Position numbers and translations under genes: made by a program
IMG/VR virus record: IMGVR_UViG_3300037507_000172
Span: 1-25,115 of that record
Source: a virus
Length of the DNA: 25,115 bases
Strand: one strand, 5' to 3'
Notes under the pieces: model-generated
The model's input: only the letters and a program-made list of their open reading frames with translations
Told to the model about the DNA's origin: nothing
The model's database searches: none
In this document: positions 2,093 to 19,217 of the stretch, piece by piece
Layout of the letters: the number at the start of each line of letters is the position of its first letter
Position numbering within the stretch: position 1 is the first letter of the stretch

Positions 2093-3070
2093 TCAATCGT
2101 GCTCCAAAATAAGTTTAATTAATTTCTGAGGATAGGTTGGATCAGTAGCATAACCCTCAATCTGAAGAAGTTGACAGCACTCTTCCCATGAAGTGGCACG
2201 GTTAACTCCTTTCATATCTTTAAAGTTTTTATACCACAACCTAATAAGATCCTCAATACATGCTTCTGGGCTAGAATAATCCTTAAAGGTATCTGTAATA
2301 GTTATCCATTTCCCATTAAGGAATTCTTTGGTTTCCCGAGAGGTGCCAGGTTTACCTTTAATACCAAAATAATTATGTTTACCAGAAGTATGTTTACCAT
2401 AACTACTTTCAAGTGCCCATTGAGCAGCTACAACCTGTGGATATTTAGCGCCCTGTTTAGCGGCAACAGCTTTAATTCCATCCCAAGTATTTTTGAAAGG
2501 CTCTATTTTAGTAGTAGAAGACGTAGCCCGAAAGGTTATGTACCATCCAGAGCCATTACCCTCTACCATCCACCGTTTGGACCAATTTTTCCATGAATAG
2601 GGGACATATTTACCCCCAACACCGGGCTTTAGGTACCCACCATTACTATTATCCATTTCCCCATACGGGTCATGGCAGATAACATGGGTATCAGTAAGGC
2701 CCACAACTAACATCCAATGCCCCCCCCCTGTGGGGGCGTGAGCAGGACCCTTATGAAGGATTCCACAAGCCACAGGATAGCCCTTTTCTAGCTCCTTTTC
2801 CAGGGTTGTACGGGTGCCATTCTTTAAAAAGGTTGCTTTCACCCCGTAATGGGCAGTTGCTCTGATATGCGACACTGCTTCAGTGGTATCTCCATACTTA
2901 AGAACGGTACGGAGATAGGTATCATCGGCATTAGACCCCAACAAGGCAGTTGGATTGAGGTATTTCACTGCCATAGCACATGTACTAGAAAAGCACATGC
3001 GATCTCCATGTTGGGTAGCGGAGTCCAGCTGGGGGTAGTATTGATTTACCTTAAGCGTGATGTTAGTCAC
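2093..3070 (-). CDS. Two-domain endolysin: C39-like peptidase plus glucosaminidase
   Basis: A 325-aa cell-wall hydrolase. Residues 1-185 resemble a papain-like Peptidase_C39_2 domain: C26 in DRMCFSSTCAMAV, H118 in TGGGHWMLVVG and D134 in CHDPYG form the likely triad. Residues 190-325 resemble the FlgJ-type N-acetylglucosaminidase family, with the likely catalytic E221 in AAQWALESSYGKHTSG, then NYFGIKG and a C-terminal ATDPTYPQKLIKLI. The protein should cut both peptide and glycan parts of the wall at lysis. No signal peptide is seen, so release probably needs a holin. It starts with GTG 4 nt after the small membrane gene. A nine-base homopolymer encodes the three Gly before His118. Confidence 0.87.
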   Translation of the reverse strand: MTNITLKVNQYYPQLDSATQHGDRMCFSSTCAMAVKYLNPTALLGSNADDTYLRTVLKYGDTTEAVSHIRATAHYGVKATFLKNGTRTTLEKELEKGYPVACGILHKGPAHAPTGGGHWMLVVGLTDTHVICHDPYGEMDNSNGGYLKPGVGGKYVPYSWKNWSKRWMVEGNGSGWYITFRATSSTTKIEPFKNTWDGIKAVAAKQGAKYPQVVAAQWALESSYGKHTSGKHNYFGIKGKPGTSRETKEFLNGKWITITDTFKDYSSPEACIEDLIRLWYKNFKDMKGVNRATSWEECCQLLQIEGYATDPTYPQKLIKLILEHD

Positions 3071-16549: not shown

Positions 16550-17569
16550 TCAAACGTTACGGAACGCACCGGCAACGCCGACGCGCACAGCAGCGCAACC
16601 ATAGGCCAGACGGCCCACGATCACATCGCCTTGATAGATCACCTTTGTATCGGCGCCCGTGGTTTGCACGGAGGGACCGATGGCTTCCACAACGCCAGCA
16701 GCGTCACGGTGGAAGATCAGGCCGCAGCTGTTGGTGAAGTTAGAAGCAATACCATAGGAGTTGTTCTCGCCAGTCACAGCAGCAGCATCAATGGCAGTAC
16801 CAGCAGCAGAACCGTACTTCCCAAGGAAGGGGATGTTGTTGGACTTCTTGATGGAGATACCAGCAATTTCGAACAGACCGTCGCCAGTGTTCATCGAACC
16901 CTGGGTGTTGCCATATTCGCGGTAAAGGATGTTGGTATCGACCTGAGAGATCAGGGCGTAGTATTGACGGGGGCTCAAAACAGCCACGCGGCCATCCTTA
17001 GGAGCAGCCACTTCATCGAGACGGGCAGCAGCTTCAAAGAAGCCATCAACCAGGGCCTGAGCATCATACTCTTTGTTGGCACCGAGGTTGATTTGGAAGC
17101 CACCAGGCTCACCAGTCACAGCAGCCGAAGCAGACGAGGCACGGTCCAGAACGCGGAAGATACGGCGATCATAGAACTCAGCCAGGCTTTGACCGATCTG
17201 ACGGGCAATAGGGCCACGAATGTCATACTGGCTCATGATTTCGTCGAGGTTATCAACGAAGGCAGATGCCACCAGCAGGTCATCCAGCGCGATGGTGGTT
17301 TCGGCTGCCGGGGGGTTGCCCGAACCGAGGATAGGCACACCAGGCGTACGATAACCAGCCGAGATGCGGCCAGTGTGAATGAATTGAGCCTGCTTACCAC
17401 CACGCAGGGTCCGGTTCATCACCAGATCCTTAGCAATAGTGGAGTTACGGAAAGCCTCATAGACCTCGCCCGAAAAGAGCTTGAGGAAGAGGTTAGTACG
17501 CTCAGCGTAAGTAGGAGAAGCGCCGCCAGCTTTATTACTGGCGCCAAGATAAGTTACTGAAGCAGTCAT
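16550..17569 (-). CDS. Major capsid protein, T7 gp10-like
   Basis: A 339-aa HK97-fold-type major capsid protein of the T7-like group (T7 gp10A is 344 aa), forming the icosahedral shell. It starts MTASVTYLGASNKAGG; an in-frame extension to 17677 adds 36 low-quality residues encoded by the hairpin-rich leader and is rejected. Family features include LFLKLFSGEVYEAFRNSTIA, a GKQAQFIHTGR strand, a LDDLLVASAFVDNLDE segment and RVAVLSPRQYYAL. The gene looks more GC-rich than the tail genes that follow, as often seen for highly expressed phage genes. No Shine-Dalgarno sequence precedes the ATG; the last 28 nt of the leader are AT-rich. Terminator-like hairpins lie upstream and downstream. Confidence 0.96.
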   Translation of the reverse strand: MTASVTYLGASNKAGGASPTYAERTNLFLKLFSGEVYEAFRNSTIAKDLVMNRTLRGGKQAQFIHTGRISAGYRTPGVPILGSGNPPAAETTIALDDLLVASAFVDNLDEIMSQYDIRGPIARQIGQSLAEFYDRRIFRVLDRASSASAAVTGEPGGFQINLGANKEYDAQALVDGFFEAAARLDEVAAPKDGRVAVLSPRQYYALISQVDTNILYREYGNTQGSMNTGDGLFEIAGISIKKSNNIPFLGKYGSAAGTAIDAAAVTGENNSYGIASNFTNSCGLIFHRDAAGVVEAIGPSVQTTGADTKVIYQGDVIVGRLAYGCAAVRVGVAGAFRNV

Positions 17570-17590: not shown

Positions 17591-17615
17591 TTTATAACGA
17601 TTACAAGTACTTGTA
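17591..17615 (-). promoter_or_regulatory. Operator-like palindrome beside a -10-like box, upstream of capsid
   Basis: TACAAGTACTTGTA (17602-17615) is a perfect 14-nt palindrome. Ten nucleotides... measured on the minus strand, only a short ATCGT spacer separates it from TATAAA (17591-17596), so a regulator bound here would cover the -35 region of a possible promoter about 20 nt before the capsid ATG. No good -35 hexamer is visible, so a conventional sigma-70 promoter is not proven. Confidence 0.3.
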
Positions 17616-17641: not shown

Positions 17642-17685
17642 GTATTGGGTGTCCACCGCAGCGGGCCAATACTCCAACCGGTTGG
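17642..17685 (-). repeat. Paired inverted repeats in the capsid leader
   Basis: Two inverted repeats lie side by side: a perfect 12-nt palindrome CCAACCGGTTGG (17674-17685), and GTATTGG (17666-17672 on the minus strand) with its complement CCAATAC (17642-17648), enclosing a GC-rich centre (CCGCTGCGG). In the leader RNA they could form one compound stem-loop. On the plus strand the palindrome is followed by GTTTTT, so it also resembles a plus-strand terminator. Confidence 0.5.
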
Positions 17686-17707
17686 GTTTTTAATGTGGTC
17701 CCTCCAC

Positions 17708-17740
17708 AAAGAAAAGGGGGTCCTACTCCGAGGTGCCCCC
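17708..17740 (-). terminator. Rho-independent terminator-like hairpin between RlpA-like gene and capsid
   Basis: On the minus strand GGGGG (17736-17740) pairs with CCCCC (17716-17720), with an inner CCT/AGG helix, and is followed immediately by TTTTCTTT. It lies 10 nt after the RlpA-like stop. Its tail, CCCCTTTTCTTT, is shared with the hairpin downstream of the capsid gene. Confidence 0.6.
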
Positions 17741-17750
17741 AATCCAAAAG

Positions 17751-18047
17751 TTAATTAAGGCGAGTAATTGATACTCTACCAACTCCAGAGCCGGTTAGAC
17801 CGATCTTGTCAGCCGCACCTTTACTTAGATCAAGACTCCTACCATGAGCGTAGGGACCCCGATCATTGACCCGAACAACGGCACACCTATTGTAACAAAC
17901 CTTAAGGCGTGTTCCAAAGGGTAGTGTCTTGTGCGCTGCCGTAAGGCCGTTTTGATTGTATCGTTCGCCATTGGCAGTCGTGTTTCCGTGGAAGCCAGGA
18001 CCATACCAAGAGCTGATAACAGACAGAGTAGTTAGAAGAGGTAGCAT
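17751..18047 (-). CDS. RlpA-like double-psi beta-barrel protein (putative peptidoglycan hydrolase)
   Basis: A 98-aa protein that is almost wholly one RlpA-like double-psi beta-barrel: SSWYGPGFHGNTTANGERY, GLTAAHKTLPFGTRLKV, VVRVNDRGPYAHGRSLDLSK and a final GVGRVSI strand. In bacterial RlpA this domain is a lytic transglycosylase acting on peptide-stripped glycan; D62 and H68 in NDRGPYAH lie in the conserved catalytic region. C51 and C55 could form a disulfide. Residues 1-11 (MLPLLTTLSVI) are hydrophobic but lack a basic start, so export is uncertain. An in-frame TAA lies one codon before the ATG's preceding codon, so it cannot start further upstream. It has no Shine-Dalgarno sequence at a usable distance and sits between two terminator-like hairpins. 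Confidence 0.85.
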   Translation of the reverse strand: MLPLLTTLSVISSWYGPGFHGNTTANGERYNQNGLTAAHKTLPFGTRLKVCYNRCAVVRVNDRGPYAHGRSLDLSKGAADKIGLTGSGVGRVSITRLN

Positions 18048-18066
18048 GAGTTAATTGCAAAGAACT

Positions 18067-18105
18067 TTTATATTGCTTACGGCTCCTTCTTTTAGTCAAC
18101 TAAAA
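18067..18105 (-). promoter_or_regulatory. Candidate host-type promoter and palindrome upstream of the RlpA-like gene
   Basis: On the minus strand a TTGACT (18094-18099) is followed 21 nt later by TATAAA (18067-18072). The spacing is longer than the sigma-70 optimum of about 17, so this is weak. The TTGACT lies inside a 16-nt palindrome, TTTTAGT-TG-ACTAAAA (18090-18105), which could be an operator or only part of the terminator tail. An AAGGAG between the two boxes is too far (about 33 nt) from the ATG to act as its ribosome site. Confidence 0.25.
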
Positions 18106-18132
18106 AGGTGGCCAGTCATCACGACGGTCACC
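18102..18132 (-). terminator. Rho-independent terminator-like hairpin after the 66-aa gene
   Basis: On the minus strand GGTGACCGTC pairs with GACTGGCCACC around a GTGAT loop (nine pairs, one mismatch, one bulged T), directly followed by TTTTT. The stem lies 9 nt after the stop of the 66-aa basic gene and 55 nt before the RlpA-like start. Confidence 0.6.
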
Positions 18133-18141
18133 AGCTTAGTA

Positions 18142-18342
18142 CTAGGCGAGTTTACCTTTGCTTTTCCCTTTGGTTGCCTTTTTGGCTAGGGGAAGTTGGG
18201 GTCCACTGCGCTTGAGGAACATTTCCTTTTCGTAAGGGTTATCTGTTCCTTTGCCCTTGTTATAAAGCTTTTGTTGCTTTTGGGCATCCTTATGTTTTTT
18301 AGGATCAATCGGCATGGATTGAGCCAGTTTGCGTGTTGCCAT
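18142..18342 (-). CDS. Small basic hypothetical protein
   Basis: A 66-aa highly basic protein (MATRKLAQSMPIDPKKHKD at the start; a tail of ATKGKSKGKLA). An AAGGAG Shine-Dalgarno sequence lies 9 nt before the ATG and directly follows the scaffold stop, so this is one of the best-supported starts in the window. It is followed by a terminator-like hairpin at 18102-18132. Charge and position suggest nucleic-acid or capsid-interior contact, but I recognise no family. Confidence 0.72.
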   Translation of the reverse strand: MATRKLAQSMPIDPKKHKDAQKQQKLYNKGKGTDNPYEKEMFLKRSGPQLPLAKKATKGKSKGKLA

Positions 18343-18359: not shown

Positions 18360-19217
18360 TCAGAGCAAGTCGCCAGAAGCGGCTAGTTTTTGTTCGACAT
18401 CAAACCGATAAGCAGGGTCAGTACGATACCGTTTGTCACTGATAGCAGATGCTAGTTCAGCATTAGAACGGAATCCTTTGACCGTACTCTTCGGTGCCTT
18501 GCCCGAAACCTGTTGACCTTCAAACCCAACGGAATCCTTATAACGTTGATTGAGGGCTTGAACAGCAAAGAAGATAGCATCCTTATTGCCACTATTAACA
18601 ACATTATCATAGGCAGCAACTTCCTCAGGTTTGAGGTTATCGGCTGCCCACGCTAGGGTGTCGTTATAAGATTCCTGTCCCCCGACAGAAGCAACAATGT
18701 CCTTTGCAGCTTCATCAGAAAGGGGCTGCGATTGAACAGTAGGATTACTTTTTTGCCATTCCATGTATGCCTCGATGAGGTCTTCCGAAGGCATCTCCTT
18801 AAGCTTCTCAATTGTTTCCGGCTTAAGTTGATTATCGTTGGAGTAATACTCCTCAGATGCCTCCTTTAGGAAGCTGACACGTTTGGTTACCGGGGACTCA
18901 TCATTTTGGGAATTATCACCAGTTTCCGTTCCATCATCGCTCTCGTTTTTATTTGTCGAAGAGGACTCATCGGTTTCTTTCTGACCTAGTTTCTTTTGAA
19001 GTTCTAGGTATGCCTTCTCAAGGTCTTCTGCTGATTTAAATTTACCAGCATACTGAGAATGTTCTTCTGCTTCAAGTTGACTGCGGCGATACTTTTCTTC
19101 GACCTCAGCTTCTTGTTTTTCAATTAGCTTGTTGCCCTGCTCAATGAGTCGTAGCTCTTCGGTTTCACGGGCAGACGTAACATCTGGATCCGTAGCATCA
19201 AAAACAATTTCAGACAT
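18360..19217 (-). CDS. Capsid assembly (scaffolding) protein, T7 gp9-like
   Basis: A 285-aa strongly acidic, charged protein located between portal and capsid, the position of the T7 gene 9 scaffold. Scaffolds direct procapsid assembly and then exit. Residues 25-80 (IEQGNKLIEKQEAEVEEKYR onward, with AGKFKSAEDLEKAYLELQKK) look like an extended helix or coiled coil; residues 80-115 are Ser/Asp/Asn-rich linker; the C-terminal part (SAISDKRYRTDPAYRFDVEQ, then KLAASGDLL) is a basic helical region of the kind that docks to the capsid protein. Assigned by position, charge and the KSAEDLEKAYLELQKK-type motif common in phage scaffolds. Confidence 0.87.
   Translation of the reverse strand: MSEIVFDATDPDVTSARETEELRLIEQGNKLIEKQEAEVEEKYRRSQLEAEEHSQYAGKFKSAEDLEKAYLELQKKLGQKETDESSSTNKNESDDGTETGDNSQNDESPVTKRVSFLKEASEEYYSNDNQLKPETIEKLKEMPSEDLIEAYMEWQKSNPTVQSQPLSDEAAKDIVASVGGQESYNDTLAWAADNLKPEEVAAYDNVVNSGNKDAIFFAVQALNQRYKDSVGFEGQQVSGKAPKSTVKGFRSNAELASAISDKRYRTDPAYRFDVEQKLAASGDLL

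Follow-up and report, generated by a model that had tools for sequence, protein, structure and literature searches.

Phage T7 makes much capsid protein from one gene of its late operon, and the expression of this gene (gene 10) involves the phi10 promoter, RNase III sites, the g10 leader, and a terminator. In animal mitochondria, polycistronic transcripts are punctuated by tRNAs, and plant mitochondria carry t-elements; in both, a tRNA or tRNA-like fold stands at a border where a long transcript needs cutting. In cyanopodoviruses, the interval between the scaffold and capsid genes is a known site for auxiliary genes (hli and psbA, e.g., in P-SSP7). For the Syn5 RNA polymerase, the whole genome offers two promoters; the enzyme transcribes more than 37 kb from one of them and reads through a T7 terminator (PMC3950665). 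RNase P accepts phage RNAs and mRNAs with tRNA-like folds, and its phage substrates include M3 RNA, the C4 antisense RNA, and T4 gene 32 mRNA (PMC11143913). When P-SSP7 infects its host, RNase E increases, and phage transcripts are thought to be shielded by antisense RNA (PMC9692554); RNA decay is therefore an active battleground in this system.

The present study analyzed a 25,115-base virus record (hereafter the window) from a T7-like cyanopodovirus. Its late genes are all on the minus strand and are transcribed in the order RNR subunits, portal, scaffold, a 66-aa ORF, rlpA, capsid, and tail tube proteins. An earlier sequence-only reading interpreted the rlpA-like gene and the hairpins on either side of it as a moron. 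We instead propose that rlpA is swappable and that the capsid gene has a leader with interchangeable modules, which may punctuate the late transcript; as a whole, this is the best explanation that we have, and we give it an even chance of being correct.

Cargo between the scaffold and capsid genes

The upstream edge of the cargo slot is the scaffold gene (18360..19217, minus strand; phrog_1052, 5e-57). On the other side is the major capsid gene (16550..17569, minus strand, with its ATG at 17569; Pfam Gp10A-like, 7.7e-59), which is preceded by a structured leader. The slot contains the 66-aa ORF (18142..18342, minus strand), which the first reading did not mention; it has no family and is present in some relatives and absent in others. 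It also contains the rlpA-like gene (17751..18047, minus strand; Pfam DPBB_1, 1.1e-23), which encodes a 98-aa double-psi beta-barrel protein.

The DPBB_1 domain of this protein scored 83.7 bits against a gathering cutoff of 28.8. Bacterial RlpA is a lytic transglycosylase, and the phage protein has the same DPBB fold with conserved AAH and NDRGP residues; across 114 phage copies, DRGP was found in all 114 and AAH in 112. However, the phage version differs in its length of 98 aa and in having neither a lipoprotein signal nor a SPOR domain. An in-frame stop codon precedes its ATG by 6 nt, and the ORF encodes a 12-residue hydrophobic N-terminus followed by the DPBB domain only. The gene is under purifying selection (dN/dS of 0.13–0.47 in the pairs tested, mostly 0.13–0.28). 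The nearest cellular relatives found were the RlpA proteins of Crocosphaera/Cyanothece-type cyanobacteria (approximately 70%), in a pattern-based search that is not exhaustive for origin. Judging from the fold and conserved residues, the product is probably a late peptidoglycan-acting enzyme, either for lysis or virion-borne. At 2093–3070 (minus strand), the window encodes an endolysin in which a C39-like peptidase forms the N-terminal part and a glucosaminidase domain the C-terminal part; thus, the phage already owns a separate lysis enzyme besides the RlpA-like protein.

Cyanopodoviruses that carry rlpA always have it between the scaffold and capsid genes. It lies there in S-CBP4, S-CBP3, S-CBP1, DSL-LC07, and S-SRP01, mostly with hli and psbA alongside, and is absent from this slot in S-CBP2, Syn5, S-TIP28, NATL1A-7, P60, S-RIP2, and P-SSP7. 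Among the IMG/VR loci listed, which are related by shared ancestry and are not independent events, rlpA was present in 27 and absent in three with capsids at least 90% identical to that of the window; the three (L096, L102, and L103) have capsids that are 92–96% identical. It was absent in all 54 listed loci with capsids 79–90% identical, and present in 53 and absent in 113 with more distant capsids. The comparison of this junction in relatives, which the sequence-only reading had proposed as a check, thus showed that rlpA is not universal. In L096 (capsid 96% identical), a glutamine-II riboswitch and a short ORF at 214–267 are found in place of rlpA. Since rlpA is patchy among relatives, and since hli, psbA, and this riboswitch occur at the same site, we conclude that the slot is the auxiliary-gene site and that rlpA is one of its passengers, a swappable accessory cargo. 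The moron claim holds insofar as an accessory cargo is inserted between scaffold and capsid, but not as a lone insertion, because the site is the known slot for hli and psbA, nor as a self-contained unit with its own terminators.

rlpA is intact yet unannotated in the records of S-CBP1, S-CBP3, and S-CBP4 (KC310802, KC310803, and KC310804, respectively), and other records of S-CBP3 and S-CBP4 annotate it as rare lipoprotein A. It goes unmentioned in a comparative cyanopodovirus paper (PMC4646655). None of the papers covered by our literature search deals with a leader RNA of the capsid gene, or with rlpA, in cyanopodoviruses.

Signals upstream of rlpA

The features on which the moron interpretation was built can all be read in the sequence: the rlpA-like gene, a hairpin on each side, the missing Shine-Dalgarno sequence, and a poor promoter-like TTGACT/TATAAA pair at a spacing of 21 nt. 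However, most of the upstream features do not follow rlpA among relatives. The upstream hairpin with its TTTTT occupies 18102..18132 (minus strand), and its stem (18132–18107) reads GGTGACCGTC-GTGAT-GAC.GGCCACC, followed by TTTTT. It is followed by a palindrome, TTTTTAGTTGACTAAAA (18090..18106, minus strand), which reads TTTTTTAGTCGACTAAAA in relatives. The hairpin is conserved, yet it was found in just 10 fetched loci and is missing from most close rlpA-bearing relatives. Therefore, the hairpin and palindrome together (18132–18090) are an optional insert, and the hairpin is not a signal of rlpA itself.

The proposed −35 box did not survive this comparison either. TTGACT (18099–18094), which lies 21 nt from TATAAA (18072–18067), is part of the palindrome; it reads TCGACT in relatives, most of which have no palindrome, and a conserved −35 box was not found upstream of rlpA among the relatives. 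There is no Shine-Dalgarno sequence within 20 nt of the rlpA ATG; since the capsid gene has no clear one either, this is not distinctive.

The sole signal that travels with rlpA is a 5' element, CCGTAAGCAATATAAAAGTTCTTTGC (18057..18082, minus strand), which ends 10–11 nt before the ATG. A stretch of approximately 20–24 nt within this region (GCAATATAAAAGTTCTTTGC; GTAAGCAATATAAAAGTTCTTTGC) is nearly letter-identical before rlpA in almost all rlpA loci, and is kept across phages whose RlpA-like proteins are 57–90% identical. It occurs once per genome and is confined to rlpA-bearing phages. The element may serve as a −10-like promoter or as a signal for translation. A general phage promoter was ruled out because the element has a single copy in the window and one per genome, and a riboswitch was ruled out because Rfam gave no match.

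Neither hairpin was called a terminator in a consensus scan, owing to stem mismatches. A scan of the region revealed no excess over shuffled sequences for terminators (18 vs. 16.1 ± 4.3) or promoters (23 vs. 23.7). The significance of the hairpins consequently rests on their conservation in relatives and not on the scan.

The structured leader of the capsid gene

The hairpin downstream of rlpA (17740–17716) reads GGGGG-CA-CCT-CGGAGT-AGG-A-CCCCC, followed by TTTTCTTT. We refer to this type as the class-3 hairpin; it spans 17711..17745 (minus strand), has the core CACCTC(A/G)GAGT(C/A)GGA, and forms an extended helix that takes in part of the T-run. The near-invariant core is CACCUCAGAGUCGGA, an invariance that is partly due to selection, because the regular expression used to collect class-3 hairpins fixes most core letters. 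This does not affect the location test, in which IMG/VR was scanned for exact matches to a 16-nt core (CACCTCAGAGTCGGAC). In 113 of the 118 loci with this exact core, it lies 125–221 nt before the capsid start, whether rlpA is present or not; of the other five, two are cut by a contig end and three are otherwise placed or unresolved. The stem is paired in 117 of these 118 loci, and complete genomes that have the core carry it once. In 61 distinct relatives, pairs 4 and 5 of the stem are 100% paired with six and five pair types, respectively, against maxima of 75 and 66% in shuffles. On one contig (L495) with the order scaffold-rlpA-psbA, on which a capsid gene was not found, the class-3 core precedes psbA; this is the only clear case of its kind.

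These results bear on the moron interpretation, according to which rlpA and both hairpins came as one self-contained unit and the hairpins act as insulating terminators. Both hairpins of the window have T-runs, the 5' element travels with rlpA, and the class-3 hairpin is associated with rlpA: it was found at 58 of 68 rlpA loci vs. 22 of 131 loci without rlpA, and in the close clade at 23 of 23 vs. 2 of 40. Shared ancestry accounts for part of this association; the type of hairpin is accordingly not independent of the cargo. At 10 rlpA loci, a T-arm hairpin takes the place of the class-3 hairpin. However, where psbA separates rlpA from the hairpin (S-CBP4, S-CBP1, and DSL-LC07), the hairpin stays by the capsid gene, and at 22 loci it exists without rlpA. 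The T-run does not persist as a U-tract among relatives (CTCC-TATTGG stands there in S-CBP4, and the tract is absent in others too), and part of it pairs with the GATT of the 5' strand, as pairs 8 and 9 (95% paired in the 61 distinct relatives). A GC stem followed by a conserved, unpaired U-tract, as in an intrinsic terminator, was not found among the relatives. Moreover, the upstream hairpin is optional, and the Syn5 RNA polymerase ignores a T7 terminator (PMC3950665). We consider the moron interpretation improbable. The rlpA gene does come and go at the junction, as had been suggested, but the downstream hairpin stays with the capsid gene. Based on its position before the capsid gene, its presence without rlpA, and its separation from rlpA by psbA, we conclude that the downstream hairpin is not the rlpA terminator, and that it is the first module of the capsid leader. 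More generally, before hairpins that flank a cargo gene are called terminators, it is advisable to check which neighbor they follow in relatives.

The leader opened by the class-3 hairpin is approximately 180 nt long and has covarying structure. All of its elements are on the minus strand. The P2 hairpin GTGG-AGGGA-CCAC (17695..17707) is 100% paired in 38 sequences, 15 of which have A-U/U-A compensatory changes. It is followed in the alignment by the conserved single strand ATTAAAAAC (17686..17694; GUUAAAAAC in most relatives) and by a palindromic hairpin, CCAACCGGTTGG (17674..17685), in which the letters vary and the palindrome is retained. Next is P3 (17642..17672), which was defined by grammar and covariation; in it, a C//AYA internal loop separates an outer from an inner helix, and a tetraloop of the UNCG or GNRA type caps the latter. 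A second palindrome, ACAAGTACTTGT (17603..17614), was read directly 34 nt before the capsid ATG, and it also varies in its letters and remains palindromic.

In 38 aligned leaders of the window type, 92.0% of the cells in four leader helices are paired vs. 80.7% after shuffling, with 60 changes on both sides vs. 16.8. The covariation score was 0.276 vs. 0.118 for shuffled alignments (0 of 500 as high), and slid versions did not exceed 0.064. Strict matches to the P3 grammar were obtained for 158 of the 284 distinct leaders (only 56%), in every capsid group tested; of 852 shuffles, 18 matched. Folded alone, the leader of the window is no stabler than shuffles (z = 0.25), and the class-3 hairpin alone gives no signal (z = −0.94), so the structure rests on covariation and conservation. 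We conclude that the leader is a conserved structured RNA of the major capsid gene.

Known ribozymes and riboswitches were rejected as identities for the leader. Rfam 15 contains no family that matches the window between 17500 and 18200, even at E values up to 5, and the only matches nearby are glutamine-II riboswitches and tRNAs. The leader and the tRNA mimicry at its 5' edge, described below, are in no RNA family database. A Syn5-type promoter was also rejected for the downstream hairpin (ATTGGGGGCACC, which is like ATTGGGCACCCGTAA), because the window has no match within three mismatches and the promoter sequence is absent near the Syn5 capsid gene.

The conserved blocks may also be regarded as DNA signals, i.e., a promoter or a sequence bound by the phage polymerase or by some dimeric protein, and the two palindromes that change letters yet stay palindromic fit this idea. 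However, the conserved pairs include G-U wobble, the UNCG and GNRA loops are interchangeable, a promoter would preserve sequence rather than pairing, and the Syn5 promoter motif was not found in the window. Among the explanations weighed in the present study, we rate this one as the least probable.

The leader palindromes differ between phages (CCAACCGGTTGG, CAGTCATGACTG, and CAGCACGTGCTG) and are self-complementary through the center, similar to kissing-loop dimer sites. In some phages, the class-3 loop looked by eye to be complementary to hairpins farther along the leader, but not consistently. In L112, L220, and L189, the leader has lost its 3' part to an ORF (SIEWAAGLFEGEGSI...) that, by eye, resembles a LAGLIDADG homing endonuclease.

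Interchangeable modules at the 5' edge of the leader

Among the 284 leaders, module 1 is a T-arm hairpin in 127, a class-3 hairpin in 105, and unclassified in 52. The T-arm belongs to a tRNA-like fold with an acceptor of 5–7 bp, a mini D-arm that often has a GGU loop, and no anticodon arm. In a strict test, an acceptor of at least 5 bp abutted the T-arm in 79 of 128 leaders, whereas local shuffles averaged 10.9 and never exceeded 21; a looser acceptor test did not discriminate (control 172/384). This grammar test with shuffles replaced pair counts from a MAFFT alignment, which had aligned the acceptors by sequence and not by structure, and was left out for these folds. The acceptors include the compensatory forms GAGTA/TACTC, GAATA/TATTC, GATAA/TTATC, and GTGAA/TTCAC. 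The P-SSP7 element GAGTA-ATCGGTTAAAGCCGAT-CA-GGGAGGTGCGAGTCCTCCC-TACTC folds on its own exactly in the tRNA-like form (z = −3.5). ARAGORN did not call most of these folds as tRNAs, as expected from the missing anticodon arm. Real tRNAs occupy the same position in NATL1A-7 (tRNA-Gly), L242 (tRNA-Asn), and L198 (tRNA-Cys). No tRNA was found in the window, in which module 1 is the class-3 hairpin without a T-arm/acceptor arrangement. In these forms of module 1, the bases that follow are usually (A/U)AUUG or AAUUU. The position before the capsid gene can therefore be filled by a tRNA, a tRNA-like fold, or a class-3 hairpin; the three structures are interchangeable, and two of them are tRNA-like.

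Alternatively, the slot may be a hot spot for tRNA cargo, and the tRNA-like folds may be mere remnants of tRNA genes that are decaying and do nothing for the capsid message. The real tRNAs in the same slot and the truncation of several forms agree with this. However, acceptor pairing is kept in 79 of 128 leaders where 10.9 are expected, with compensatory forms, and all of these folds are fixed directly 5' of the same leader. We regard decay as very unlikely.

Taken together with the Syn5 data, the modules suggest a candidate mechanism. The Syn5 promoter sequence occurs in the Syn5 genome at 4929 and 44797 only, and the capsid gene is near 20 kb; this lack of a capsid promoter is evidence from Syn5 and may not hold for the RNA polymerase of the window phage. 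With only two promoters, both far from the capsid gene, and a polymerase that ignores a T7 terminator, the capsid message would be cut from a long transcript. We infer that the late genes may be transcribed as one very long message on which module 1 serves as a cut mark. Where module 1 is a tRNA or a tRNA-like fold, the cut would be made by host RNase P and/or RNase Z. At the class-3 hairpin, cutting, or the blocking of decay, would occur by some equivalent route, and this is the weakest link of the mechanism. The capsid mRNA released in this way would begin with folded elements (P2, the palindromic hairpin, and P3) that protect its 5' end, and the capsid dose would thereby be uncoupled from the upstream cargo genes.

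We tentatively describe this as tRNA punctuation in cyanopodoviruses: a tRNA, an anticodon-less fold, or a substitute hairpin would mark the capsid border, and cutting by host tRNA-processing enzymes would replace the capsid promoter and terminator of the T7 style. The chance that this specific mechanism is correct is, in our judgment, somewhat below even. It resembles mitochondrial tRNA punctuation in the placement of the fold, but differs in that the system is a bacterial virus, a single border (before the capsid gene) is marked, the third form is not a tRNA, and cleavage is proposed from structure. The problem is the same as that of T7 gene 10; however, T7 uses a promoter and terminator, whereas Syn5 has no phage promoter there. 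M3, C4, and T4 gene 32 are likewise phage RNAs with folds acceptable to RNase P, but they are small RNAs or single cases, whereas the present leader precedes a structural gene and is conserved throughout a group of phages.

The leader may alternatively act in translational control, so that capsid translation is set without RNA cleavage. Either the folded leader would bind a phage protein (the capsid protein or a different one), or its tRNA-like fold would bind the ribosome or EF-Tu. The conserved asymmetric internal loop of P3 with its interchangeable tetraloops is typical of a protein site, the predicted structure runs close to the start codon, and the tRNA elbow is preserved. On the other hand, the 5' edge is occupied by any of three unrelated modules that share a similar (A)UUG junction, which favors a border or processing role for module 1, and nothing links P3 to a known ligand. 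We consider translational control to be a serious possibility, although a doubtful one.

The leader would also be an RNA family that marks the capsid gene in a common aquatic phage group. How Syn5-type phages set the capsid level apart from that of neighboring genes, when almost the whole genome is transcribed from one promoter, may be approached with the leader as a concrete sequence to test.

Another RNA was noted near rlpA in cyanomyoviruses. Genes resembling tmRNA, unannotated as such in the stretch shown, lie within 2 kb of rlpA in S-CBWM1 (L381, 1189–1467) and S-CRM01 (L383, 3264–3485), and match the Rfam family cyano_tmRNA at 123 and 74 bits, respectively.
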